From Candidatus Jacksonbacteria bacterium RIFOXYB2_FULL_44_15 (GTDB lineage: Bacteria > Patescibacteriota > Patescibacteriia > UBA9629), in contig MHJY01000044.1 of NCBI GenBank assembly GCA_001818235.1, forward strand, positions 1 through 37,212: a DNA stretch of 37,212 bases. Direction: 5' to 3'. The translations under genes were made by a program, and so were the position numbers. The notes under the pieces are model-generated. The model had not been told where the DNA came from and did not search any database. It saw only the letters and a list, made by a program, of their open reading frames with translations. Below are positions 18,808-29,344 of this stretch, one piece after another (position 1 is the stretch's first letter; each line of letters opens with the position of its first letter).

Positions 18808-18836
18808 TTGACATAAATATAATAAAATGATATAAT
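18808..18836 (+). promoter_or_regulatory. Consensus promoter of the structured leader / vWA gene
   Basis: TTGACA (18808-18813), exactly 17 nt, TATAAT (18831-18836): a perfect sigma70 consensus. Transcription should start near 18843, 9 nt before the first helix of the structured RNA. Confidence 0.85.
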
Positions 18837-18842
18837 ACACTT

Positions 18843-19010
18843 ATTCTTTCGCTGAAATTAAAGGATGGAAAAATACAGGCTTTCTTCCCCCTTGCATTAA
18901 AAATAAGGCGGCAAAAGCCAAAATCCATCTACTATTCGTGAGGGAGGAGGGTAAATCCTCCTCCCCACACGATTCCTTCCTTTAACTTCAGCAAAAGCTG
19001 AAGAATTGTT
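18843..19010 (+). ncRNA. Structured leader RNA with three-way junction and competing hairpin
   Basis: Helices read directly: P1 GCTGAAATTAAAGG (18851-18864) with CCTTTAACTTCAGC (18979-18992), one mismatch; P2 TGGA/TCCA (18866-18869/18924-18927) leading to P3 GGCTTT/AAAGCC (18878-18883/18914-18919); P4 CGTG-GGGAGGAGG (18937-18950) with CCTCCTCCC-CACG (18957-18971). The 3' arm of P1 (CTTCAGC, 18986-18992) can instead pair with GCTGAAG (18997-19003) over an AAAA loop, so the two folds exclude each other. It is the 5' end of the vWA transcript or a free RNA; there is no T-run after the second hairpin. It does not resemble tmRNA, RNase P, 6S or SRP RNA as far as I can see. Confidence 0.6.
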
Positions 19011-19102: not shown

Positions 19103-19299
19103 ATCAAAGCAGCTTTGATCGCGGCCCGGCGCATGTTTGGAATTTTTAATTTTTAATTTGTAATTTTTATTGAATGTTTAATGACTTAATTTCTAATTTA
19201 AAAATTTAACATTAGAAATTAAATAGAAATTAAGAATTAGAAATTAAAAATTTTCCAGGCCTTTGCCGGGGCTCGATCAAAGCAGTTTATTGCTTTGAT
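19103..19299. repeat. Long fold-back inverted repeat in the leader
   Basis: CTTTGATCGCGGCCCGGC (19113-19130) pairs with GCCGGGGCTCGATCAAAG (19265-19282), 16 of 18 positions. Inside, GGAATTTTTAATTTTTAATT (from 19139) faces AATTAAAAATTTTCC (to 19256), so nearly the whole 180 bp can fold back. Smaller palindromes ATCAAAGC-A-GCTTTGAT (19103-19119) and ATCAAAGCA/TGCTTTGAT (19276-19299) sit at both ends. No ORF is inside. It may be a MITE-like insertion or part of the leader. A further hairpin GCACC/GGTGC (19313-19326) precedes the SD. Confidence 0.65.
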
Positions 19300-19361
19300 G
19301 TTTTCGCAAAGCGCACCAAAATGGTGCAAATATTAGTTACTACTCTTTTAGGAGGTACACC

Positions 19362-20210
19362 ATGTACACAGCTGAAATTTCTAGAAACAACCCTGCTAGT
19401 GCAATTTTTCTATTAGACAGATCTGGTTCAATGGATGAACTAATCGCTGGAGGGCAAATAACCAAAGCCCAAGCTGTCGCAGACGCTGTTAATAAATTGC
19501 TCCAAAATTTAGTTATTAAATGTTCCAAGGGAGATGACGTCAGAAATTATTTTGACGTCGGAGTTATAGGATATGGCATGCAAACAGCTCCAGCCGTCGG
19601 TCCAATTTTCACAGGCGCGCTCGCGGGAAAAACTTTGGTCACGATCAGTGACATCGCAACAAACCCTGCTAGGCTCGTAGAGCGAACAAAAAAGGTATCT
19701 GACGGAGACGGCGGGTTAGTTGACTCAATTGTCAAATCACCAATCTGGTTCGAACCAGCGAGTGAGGGTGGTACGCCCATGACAGAAGCATTTGGTTTTT
19801 TAAAAACCATAATTGAACCCTGGATCCAACAGCATCAGCAAGCATTCCCTCCAATTGTCATTCACGTTTCTGACGGAAACTCCACAGATGGGGACCCGAG
19901 TCAAGCTGCTAAGAATGTGCAGTCTTTAACGACTACTGATGGTGGAGTTCTTATTTTTAACTGCAACATCTCTAGCTTGGGTGGTAATAGTGTGCTCTTT
20001 CCTAGCTCAACCGCAGGCATAAGTGACCCATTTGCTGAAATGTTATTCAACATTTCGTCTGTTCTGCCAGAGCCCATGGCAAAGGCTGCAAACACTGAAG
20101 GTTTCAAAATCGAACCAGGTGCTAGGGGCTTTGCCTATCAAGCCGACCTCGTCGAACTAATTCAGTTTATAGACATAGGGACTAAACCTGCACAAACAAA
20201 TCTGCGCTAA
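19362..20210 (+). CDS. TerY-like von Willebrand factor A domain protein
   Basis: The 282-aa vWA protein has the MIDAS D-x-S-G-S in FLLDRSGSMDE (residues 19-23), a Thr in the GGTPMTEAFGF loop and the third motif HVSDGNSTDGDP. No signal peptide or transmembrane helix is seen, so it is cytoplasmic. In TerY-P systems such a protein is the phosphorylated partner of the kinase and PP2C encoded next. AGGAGGT sits 7 nt before the ATG, a strong SD of a kind missing from the core genes here. A leader of about 500 nt precedes it, and hairpins separate it from the PP2C gene. Confidence 0.87.
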   Translation: MYTAEISRNNPASAIFLLDRSGSMDELIAGGQITKAQAVADAVNKLLQNLVIKCSKGDDVRNYFDVGVIGYGMQTAPAVGPIFTGALAGKTLVTISDIATNPARLVERTKKVSDGDGGLVDSIVKSPIWFEPASEGGTPMTEAFGFLKTIIEPWIQQHQQAFPPIVIHVSDGNSTDGDPSQAAKNVQSLTTTDGGVLIFNCNISSLGGNSVLFPSSTAGISDPFAEMLFNISSVLPEPMAKAANTEGFKIEPGARGFAYQADLVELIQFIDIGTKPAQTNLR

Positions 20211-20374: not shown

Positions 20375-20442
20375 TTTTTTAAGGATTGATATGATATGAG
20401 TATAATACACGATAGTCATATCATACCAGTCCTTATTTTTTT
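20375..20442 (+). terminator. Bidirectional intrinsic terminator before the PP2C gene
   Basis: AAGGA...TATGATATGA (20381-20399) pairs with TCATATCATA...TCCTT (20416-20434) with a 4x4 internal loop, and is followed by a T7 run; T6 lies on the other side. It suggests that the PP2C-kinase pair is a separate transcript. Between it and the PP2C start are hairpins TTGTC/GACAA and AAGTTTC/GAAACTT. Confidence 0.65.
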
Positions 20443-20523: not shown

Positions 20524-21270
20524 ATGAAAGTCGAAATCAGATCTTTTTATGTACAGAAATTGGGCAACAAACTGGAAGAATTTGAAGATGCGTTTGATTA
20601 CAAACTAACCCCAGACAATCTGCTACTAGCCATGTCTGATGGCGCCACCGAAGCGAGTTTTTCTCGCGAATGGGCGCAAATTCTGACCCACGGTTTTATT
20701 AATGAAAAAGTCCATTGTTGGAAAAGAAATTTCCGAAAAAGAGAAAAAAACATAACCGATTGGCTAAAAGTGCTACAAAAAACATGGCACGCCGGAATTG
20801 ACTTTAAAAAATTACAATGGTTTGCCGTTGACAAGGTTAGTAAAGGAGCATTCGCATCGCTCCTCGGTTTAAGACTGACTCTTAAAACAGGTTATTGGCA
20901 GGCATTAGCTGTCGGAGATACAAATTTATTCGTTATTAGAAACGACAAAATGATCTTATCTTGGCCATTAACCATGCATGAGGAATTTGGATCAACGCCG
21001 GTAATAGTTGGGTCAAACCCTGCACAGAATGAATTGTCATTAAGCGCTATTAAAACCGCACACGGAAAAATACAAGCCGGTGATATATTTATCATCGCCA
21101 CGGACGCAATAAGCGATTTAATAGTCAGAAGTTACAAAAACTCATGGCAAGAAATTGCCGGCATTAGTTCGCAAACAGAATTCGAAAGTTTCGTTAGCCA
21201 AATGCGCTCTCAAAAAGAGCTTAAAAATGACGACACGACATTGGTCATCGTCAAAATAGAGGAGGTATGA
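20524..21270 (+). CDS. PP2C-family serine/threonine phosphatase
   Basis: A single-domain, 248-aa PP2C: EDAF near residue 20, LAMSDGATE (Mg-binding Asp), ASLLGLRL with ALAVGDTNLFVIR, IIATDAISDL (second metal Asp) and a closing KNDDTTLVIVKI. No membrane segment. In TerY-P triads it reverses phosphorylation by the neighbouring kinase. CGGAGGT 9 nt upstream is a strong SD. Its stop is 3 nt before the kinase start, whose SD (GAGGAGGT) lies inside this gene, implying coupled translation. Confidence 0.9.
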   Translation: MKVEIRSFYVQKLGNKLEEFEDAFDYKLTPDNLLLAMSDGATEASFSREWAQILTHGFINEKVHCWKRNFRKREKNITDWLKVLQKTWHAGIDFKKLQWFAVDKVSKGAFASLLGLRLTLKTGYWQALAVGDTNLFVIRNDKMILSWPLTMHEEFGSTPVIVGSNPAQNELSLSAIKTAHGKIQAGDIFIIATDAISDLIVRSYKNSWQEIAGISSQTEFESFVSQMRSQKELKNDDTTLVIVKIEEV

Positions 21271-21273
21271 CAA

Positions 21274-23310
21274 ATGCCTTGGCCATCGGGAAGCGACTAT
21301 CAAACCGCGGTGCAAAATCCCCAGACCGCATTTAAAGTTCCGAAGTTACAGAAGTGTACACCCAGGATGGGAAAAATGGGGATGCCCTGGGTTGCGAGTG
21401 GCAACTTTGCCTCTGTGTATTGTATGGAGGATCCGAGCAGTACGACAAAGTATGCAACCAGAGTATTCAATCGCCCGGTCACTGTGCAAAAAGCACGCTA
21501 TCAAGCGATCAGTGATCACTTGGGTGGCATTTCGCACCCATTTATGGTCGAGTTCGAATTTGTAGAAGAAGGCATATTAGTCGCCGGCACTTGGTACCCA
21601 ATTGTTATCATGGAATGGTGCGAAGGCCCAGATTTTGGGAAATACGTTGAAATAAACGTAAGCAACCCCCAAACCTTACTGTATTCAGCGGCGCAGTTCC
21701 GGGCAGTAATCACTGGATTACAGGGTGCCCATATGGCCCACGGTGATTGCCAACATGGGAACGCAAAAATTATAGCGACCGGTGACATAAAGCTCGTTGA
21801 CTATGACGACTTCTATGTTCCGGCTCTAAAGGGTGAAAAGGCTATCGCATTAGGAATGCCTAATTACCAGCACCCGGCACGGACAGCTGACGACTTTAAC
21901 GAACATGTAGATAACTTTTCCGCAATACTAATCTACATGTCCTTGGGCGCCATCGCAGCAGATAAAACTCTATTTGCCAAATATAATAACGGGGATAATC
22001 TGATTTTAAAAGAGGCCGACTTTAAAGACCTCAACTCCCCAGCTTGGATTGACCTTGCAAAAATTCAAGATCAAGTTGTTAAGGATCTTGTTGACGCCCT
22101 GCGCGACGCCTGCACAAAACCCATCGACCAAGTGCCATGCTTGGAAGATGTAATTAAACAAACCGGTGCGCTCGCTAGAGGCACCAAACCGGCAGTTCAG
22201 CCGCAACAGCAACAGACGACCACCACTACAGGAGGCACTGCCGCAGGAACCACTACAACAGGCACAGGCCAGCAACACCAACCAACCACTGCGCAACCGC
22301 CGCAAATCGCGTTACCAAACGCCAACGTGAACTTTGGACCGCAACGCACCGGCAAGGCAACCGAACAAAAGTTCGAGATCAAGAATACCGGAAACGGAAC
22401 GCTTAATCTCACGTCTGTTACGGTTACTACAGCCGGCTCGCCGTTTAGGGTAAAAGCGTTACCGTCGACCGCAATCGGTTCGAATGGGGCGATGTTGGTA
22501 ACGGTCGAATTCCAGCCACAGACAAAAGGACAGCACAGCGCAGTTGTGGAGGTCATATCAAATGACCCGAACAATAGGACATTGTCTGTTAACTTGTCTG
22601 GCCAAGGTGTGGAGCCGGAAATGATAATTTCGCCAAGAGCGATCGATTTCTCAGGGATGGAGGTTGGACAATCGTTTACCTTAACGGTGAACATTGCCAA
22701 CAATGGTGATGATACACTTGGCAACATCAACATCACCTCCTCTGACCCGTCGTTTGTTGTTGGCACCACCTATCACTCGTCCCTCCCGCCTCGCGACAAC
22801 CAAGATGTTGCAATCACTTTCAACGCAACCCGGCCAGGCGCTACTTCTGCGCAAATCAGAGTTGAAAGTGATGATGCCGTAAAATCTCCGATAACCGTCG
22901 CCGCCACCGCTGATGTGCAACCGCTGCAACCAGTGGTGATCACGTCGATTTGGCCGGTGACGGTCGGACAAGGTGGGACAACCGAGATTGAAATTCACGG
23001 AGAGCACTTGTCTCCGCAAACGCGATTTGATTTTGGAGCCGACGTTCAAAGGGGTGCGATCAAAAGTGTAACCTCAGACACGATGATAGTCGAGGTCAAG
23101 GTTGACGCCGATACCCCGCTCGGTGTGCCGCATACATTGGTCGCCCAGAACCCCGGAACTCCGGTAGCAAAAATGCCGGACGCATTCACAATTGCTGAAC
23201 CGCCGCTCCCACCAGGAATGATGCGGTGCCCGCACTGTAAACGTCCCCGCCCACGACCCACGCCCGCCAATCCTGCAGTGCTCTGTCCCAACTGCGGACG
23301 GACGCCGTAA
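21274..23310 (+). CDS. Atypical protein kinase with ASH-ASH-IPT domains and C-terminal zinc ribbon
   Basis: Residues about 1-300 are a kinase: glycine loop ASGNFASVYC, the beta3 position usually Lys reads YATRVFN (Arg), catalytic loop HGDCQHGNAKI (Asp and Asn kept, Lys replaced by Gln) and VDYDDFYVP in place of DFG. A Gln/Thr/Gly/Pro linker (about 305-345) follows. Two ASH/HYDIN-like beta-sandwiches (about 349-448 and 449-548; VNFGPQRTGK, IDFSGMEVGQ), one IPT/TIG domain (about 552-645) and a zinc ribbon CPHC...CPNC (about 651-675) complete it. There is no membrane segment, so these Ig-like domains are cytoplasmic. The zinc ribbon is typical of TerY-P kinases. GC content looks higher than in neighbours. 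Confidence 0.9.
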   Translation: MPWPSGSDYQTAVQNPQTAFKVPKLQKCTPRMGKMGMPWVASGNFASVYCMEDPSSTTKYATRVFNRPVTVQKARYQAISDHLGGISHPFMVEFEFVEEGILVAGTWYPIVIMEWCEGPDFGKYVEINVSNPQTLLYSAAQFRAVITGLQGAHMAHGDCQHGNAKIIATGDIKLVDYDDFYVPALKGEKAIALGMPNYQHPARTADDFNEHVDNFSAILIYMSLGAIAADKTLFAKYNNGDNLILKEADFKDLNSPAWIDLAKIQDQVVKDLVDALRDACTKPIDQVPCLEDVIKQTGALARGTKPAVQPQQQQTTTTTGGTAAGTTTTGTGQQHQPTTAQPPQIALPNANVNFGPQRTGKATEQKFEIKNTGNGTLNLTSVTVTTAGSPFRVKALPSTAIGSNGAMLVTVEFQPQTKGQHSAVVEVISNDPNNRTLSVNLSGQGVEPEMIISPRAIDFSGMEVGQSFTLTVNIANNGDDTLGNINITSSDPSFVVGTTYHSSLPPRDNQDVAITFNATRPGATSAQIRVESDDAVKSPITVAATADVQPLQPVVITSIWPVTVGQGGTTEIEIHGEHLSPQTRFDFGADVQRGAIKSVTSDTMIVEVKVDADTPLGVPHTLVAQNPGTPVAKMPDAFTIAEPPLPPGMMRCPHCKRPRPRPTPANPAVLCPNCGRTP

Positions 23311-29196: not shown

Positions 29197-29225
29197 TTGA
29201 CAATGTCTAGTGGATATGCTATTAT
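29197..29225 (+). promoter_or_regulatory. Promoter of small RNA B
   Basis: TTGACA (29197-29202), 17 nt, TATTAT (29220-29225), back to back with the abiE promoter. Confidence 0.8.
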
Positions 29226-29230
29226 ATAGA

Positions 29231-29344
29231 AGTCGCAAAAAATAAGGAGTATTGTGCTAACTCGATTTCCCGGTTAGTGGGTTTACGAACCCCTTTCTTT
29301 ATTCTTGCGACTATTATCAGGCGAGGATAGAGAAGGGGGTTTTT
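29231..29344 (+). ncRNA. Candidate small structured RNA B with intrinsic terminator
   Basis: AGTCGCAA (29231-29238) pairs with TTGCGACT (29305-29312), enclosing CTAAC/GTTAG (29257-29261/29273-29277) and GGGTT-TACG-AACCC (29279-29292). The terminator CCCCTTTCTTTATTC (29290-29304) with GGATAGAGAAGGGGG (29325-29339) and T5 competes with these helices. No gene follows, so it is more likely a free RNA of about 114 nt than a leader. It shares promoter form and the first 13 nt with RNA A. Confidence 0.65.

Follow-up and report, generated by a model that had tools for sequence, protein, structure and literature searches.

A probably passive nested inverted repeat predicted to head the long leader of a TerY-P operon in a Candidatus Jacksonbacteria genome

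TerY-P triads are phosphorylation-dependent signalling modules and, in the form with an OB-fold kinase, a stand-alone antiphage system (PMC11090510). The other described systems closest to our locus are transcription attenuators and riboswitch leaders. These also have a folded, promoter-proximal leader with an alternative hairpin. To our knowledge, few regulatory RNAs have been described in the bacterial group considered here. We analysed a stretch of 37,212 nucleotides from a Candidatus Jacksonbacteria genome (hereafter, the window). The locus of interest is a fold between a promoter and a TerY-P operon; the coordinates of all features are in Table 1. PADLOC places TerY, PP2C and STK_OB genes together, in agreement with the TerY-P assignment of the initial annotation, and their order is that of the known TerY-P system (PMC11090510). 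Unlike in that system, the kinase here matches STK_OB over residues 1-316 only; Ig-like domains, and C-terminal CxxC-type motifs, replace the rest.

Table 1. Positions in the window of the promoter, the leader features and the TerY-P genes.
Feature	Positions	Strand	Basis
Sigma70-type promoter, TTGACA-17-TATAAT, TG before -10	18808-18836	+	12/12 matches
Closing helix, 5' arm (left arm of inverted repeat)	18846-18870	+	MFE, register
Junction helix 2, GGCTTT/AAAGCC, inner CCTTG/TAAGG hairpin	18878-18919	+	pair probability 0.95
Junction helix 3, TCGTG/CACGA plus GGGAGGAGG/CCTCCTCCC	18936-18972	+	inner stem pair probability 0.99
Closing helix, 3' arm (right arm of inverted repeat)	18973-18997	+	MFE, register
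Alternative 7-bp hairpin, CTTCAGC-AAAA-GCTGAAG, exclusive with outer 6 bp of closing helix	18986-19003	+	scanner, ensemble
Large AT-rich palindrome between fold and TerY gene	19107-19288		inverted repeats
AGGAGG Shine-Dalgarno (SD) sequence and spacer of TerY gene	19350-19361	+	folds locally with start codon region
TerY-like vWA protein, TerY-P system	19362-20210	+	PADLOC TerY, E 2.3e-92
PP2C phosphatase, TerY-P system	20524-21270	+	PADLOC PP2C, E 1.5e-34; Pfam PP2C_2
TerY-P kinase, Ig-like domains after kinase	21274-23310	+	PADLOC STK_OB, E 1.4e-65; Pfam HYDIN Ig-like

TerY was found in 1 of the 380 genomes of our phylum sample. The plasmid-encoded proteins most similar to it (47% and 36%) come from cyanobacteria, and the one in Acaryochloris is followed by a PP2C gene. 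Hence, the TerY-P operon was probably acquired horizontally. Near-match pattern searches with the vWA protein covered 84,980 species as well as viral contigs and gave no relative. Upstream, an aminotransferase-to-enolase block is common to a sister genome. The window also encodes toxin-antitoxin-like proteins (HepT-like with a nucleotidyltransferase, HicB-like, PIN and AbiE-like) and so has the character of a defence-type island. Between the TerY and PP2C genes, at 20380-20435, a TAAGGATTGATATGATATGAGTAT/ATAGTCATATCATACCAGTCCTTA hairpin precedes a T-run and is possibly an intra-operon terminator.

The perfect sigma70 promoter described in the initial annotation is indeed a match at every consensus position, and the TG before its -10 element is an additional feature. 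The pattern TTGACA-N16-18-TATAAT occurs 20 times in the 1.25-Mb genome, compared with 0 times for the reversed control pattern. Hence, the promoter very probably works. Its sequence predicts an RNA start at 18843. Between 18837 and 19362, on the forward strand, there is no further sigma70-like site with at least 9 of 12 matches. We therefore infer, as a fair reading of the sequence, that transcripts from 18843 read through into TerY and carry a leader of about 519 nt.

The predicted head of this transcript (18843-19010) folds into a three-way junction with an energy of -61.5 kcal/mol (z -6.7), equalled by 0 of 200 shuffles (MFE). The junction had been noted before, with a closing helix of 14 bp. 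The junction stands, but those 14 bp are the 6+8 part of an imperfect helix of 6+8+4 bp, interrupted by single A.C and U.U mismatches. Over the full 25-position register, the two arms form 22 Watson-Crick pairs, 2 A.C oppositions and 1 U.U. Within junction helix 3, formerly called P4, the GGAGGAGG/CCTCCTCC stem is present at 18942-18965 as first drawn. Note that the reverse complement of the folded stretch reaches -76.1 kcal/mol (z -8.1), at least as good as the forward strand, and that the two A.C mismatches of the closing helix become G.U pairs on that strand. Since both strands fold, the fold cannot tell which strand matters; this is expected of a DNA inverted repeat. No sigma70-like promoter precedes the element on the reverse strand, and we rejected that strand as a functional RNA on these grounds.

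A 25-position inverted repeat, with a better fold on the reverse strand, would also suit a DNA-level element, such as a MITE or similar insertion remnant, for which strand and transcription are irrelevant. We compared the leader repeat with the rest of the genome, surveyed over 357 kb sampled as 20 stretches. Folding of this kind is common. A window with z of -5 or below occurs in 29% of the 116 intergenic regions of at least 142 nt, and the region containing our fold ranks 7th of 116; each z value is the best obtained over several windows on either strand, with 20 shuffles per window, and is therefore optimistic, equally so for all regions. A significant intergenic fold is thus, in this genome, no evidence on its own of a regulatory RNA. 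The 357 kb contain 54 intergenic inverted-repeat pairs of at least 15 bp around 60-200 nt, many of them AT-rich and overlapping. Some are nested multi-hairpin elements of 92-173 bp. These, and the MITE-like elements of the genome, share with the leader repeat a long closing helix around internal hairpins and an intergenic position. Within the leader itself, the core of the large palindrome (19141-19252) is a dispersed repeat, with 32 own-genome matches, counted on both strands and of low complexity.

Two families of repeats were seen elsewhere in the genome. One is a dispersed nested inverted-repeat element with GCGTTTGG/CCAAACGC-type arms, found at L072:3112-3239, L087:1592-1713 and L075:4861-4955. 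The first two copies resemble each other over their whole length (fold z of about -11 to -12), and the third shares the arms only. The other is a MITE-like element of 135-139 bp, with copies at L081:13316-13454 and L072:10095-10229. Its inverted ends, GGCTTTGTTGAATAAAT, are about 18-22 nt long and, we presume, resemble IS903-type ends.

The existence of both families counts in favour of a DNA-level element. Unlike the MITE-like elements, however, the leader repeat is single copy and lies directly 3' of a consensus promoter. No second copy was found in its own genome, where the only related arm within 3 mismatches is one single arm with 2 mismatches, on C53. Similarly, no target-site duplication of 5-12 nt flanks the repeat. 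Hence, despite its inverted ends, the repeat does not qualify as a MITE-like insertion; a single copy with no target-site duplication does not establish a mobile-element origin. We consider a purely DNA-level element unlikely.

The initial annotation had proposed that the RNA may switch between two exclusive states. The alternative hairpin and the closing helix do exclude each other, but the exchange does not involve the whole helix. The hairpin can displace only its outer 6 bp (18851-18856 with 18987-18992), and the core stays intact. Thus, at every length tested, pair probabilities were at least 0.94 for the inner 8 bp, and at least 0.95 for junction helices 2 and 3. For the segment 18843-19019, the form with the closing helix has an energy of -64.4 kcal/mol and that with the hairpin -61.4 kcal/mol. 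When the hairpin has just emerged, the default fold is the closing helix (0.96). With other 3' ends, the probability of the hairpin is 0.04 (19010), 0.98 (19361) or 0.41 (19420). Because the winning outer state shifts with the chosen 3' end, the bistability is as much a property of the calculation as of the RNA.

Exclusive pairing, close energies and a closing helix formed by default would fit a lineage-specific attenuator, or riboswitch-like element, placed directly after the promoter. The outer closing helix would then be the antiterminator and the 18986-19003 hairpin the terminator. Any ligand, protein or ribosome opening the closing helix would turn the antiphage operon off. A terminator scanner does list this hairpin as terminator-like. 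However, 4 of its 7 pairs are GC and the tail, AATTGTTCTTTA, is a poor U-tract. Judged by these features, the hairpin is a poor terminator. Neither are terminator-like sites clearly enriched in the region (5 found, 3.0 +/- 2.0 in shuffles). The confinement of the exchange to 6 bp also speaks against attenuation.

Transcription could also stop for good at the same hairpin and give a small RNA of about 160 nt in its own right, in which case there would be no leader. The promoter is strong, the fold is compact and closed, and other 12/12 promoters of the genome (L045 and L056) would give hairpin-terminated short transcripts. Conversely, the terminator is weak, no conservation was found in relatives, and the TerY operon would be left with no forward-strand sigma70-like promoter of at least 9/12 matches between 18837 and 19362. 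This makes a small RNA distinctly improbable.

Control of translation was considered too. It had been suggested that the CCTCC of junction helix 3 might reach the SD of the TerY gene. In the ensemble this pairing has essentially zero probability. The CCTCC remains in its own stem (0.99). In all three constructs, the SD (around 19350-19355) is instead paired with the nearby start region (19364-19373), whether the element is present or absent. As no leader segment pairs with the SD in these constructs, we rejected a translational switch by SD sequestration. We also rejected leader-peptide attenuation. None of the leader open reading frames checked has a properly spaced SD; in the single SD-like candidate, MEKYRLSSPLH (18865), AAAGG is right against the ATG. 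With no SD control, a poor terminator and no frame with a spaced SD, no control output is evident. The leader may nonetheless cause weak attenuation.

We also searched for relatives of the RNA. No Rfam family matched over the stretch at the gathering threshold, in agreement with the earlier statement that no known class was recognised. Matches below threshold were weak; most were to models of microRNA precursors and lay on the long AT palindrome. A covariance model built from the single sequence found no convincing relative in 381 genomes of the class and 380 of the phylum (overlapping samples, about 760 genome searches). The best scores, 29 bits with E 7e-4 per genome, are at about chance level over some 760 genomes, and the reverse strand of the element itself reaches the same 29 bits. 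The most sequence-like match, at L034, was rejected since it belongs to another type of intergenic palindrome. With laxer filters, 12 nearer or candidate genomes yielded no homologue, and the model matched nothing at the two loci in cyanobacteria that encode the proteins closest to TerY. At the DNA level, most of the matches obtained by similarity in 192 related genomes were short, AT-rich and promoter-like, and a pattern search of genome and viral contigs gave none. Note that a model from one sequence misses distant homologues, and that the lineage is thinly sampled (1 relative of the same family and 2 more of the same order); hence, absence of matches is not proof.

These searches bear on attenuation as well. 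Unlike described attenuators and riboswitch leaders, the leader has no convincing terminator, SD control, homologue or Rfam match. With the weak stem and no leader peptide having a spaced SD, this makes the attenuator quite unlikely. The more specific proposal, that an RNA attenuator senses an infection signal and controls the acquired TerY-P operon through exchange of the outer helix and the 18986-19003 hairpin, is very improbable. If the leader did work as a switch, a phosphorylation-based antiphage system would here be under RNA control. The layout given in the initial annotation, a promoter followed by a fold at the head of the TerY-P leader, is borne out. A new structured RNA or switch is not supported: no homologue was found, no SD output is seen in the ensemble, the terminator is poor and similar repeats are common.

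We favour, with a probability of about one half, the explanation that the long leader of the acquired TerY-P operon is headed by a transcribed nested inverted repeat whose role is probably passive. The first 150 nt or so of the leader, transcribed from the consensus promoter, would owe their fold to a nested inverted repeat in the DNA that is single copy and of a kind frequent in the intergenic gaps of this genome. It would most likely act passively, as a stable structure at the 5' end that may protect the transcript, with no ligand sensing. A fold that beats shuffles on both strands, the abundance of similar repeats and the dispersed palindrome in the leader all support a passive repeat, and from them we infer the passive role. 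Two observations argue against it. The fold is placed right at the head of a strong promoter's transcript, a position that a random element has no need to occupy, and this inverted repeat has neither a second copy in the genome nor a target-site duplication.

Other candidate RNAs were apparent. At 29197-29343 of the window, on the forward strand, a TTGACA-17-TATTAT promoter-like site precedes a stretch with exclusive pairings (fold z -4.6). Here, GTCGCAAAAAATAAGG could pair with CCTTTCTTTATTCTTGCGAC, or CCTTTCTTTATTCTTGCGAC could form a 22-bp terminator hairpin (29287-29342) ending in GGGGGTTTTT. The stretch also contains AAGGAG, followed by a short open reading frame (GTG-CTA-ACT-CGA-TTT-CCC-GGT-TAG). 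No similar DNA was found in 95 relatives, and no gene lies close downstream on the forward strand. As a candidate attenuator, this stretch is better than the leader fold at 18843-19010. Elsewhere in the genome, the perfect promoters of L045 (C10:15951) and L056 (C36:26367) are followed, about 100-140 nt on, by strong intrinsic terminators; neither has an Rfam match, and their transcripts are candidate short RNAs or attenuated leaders.
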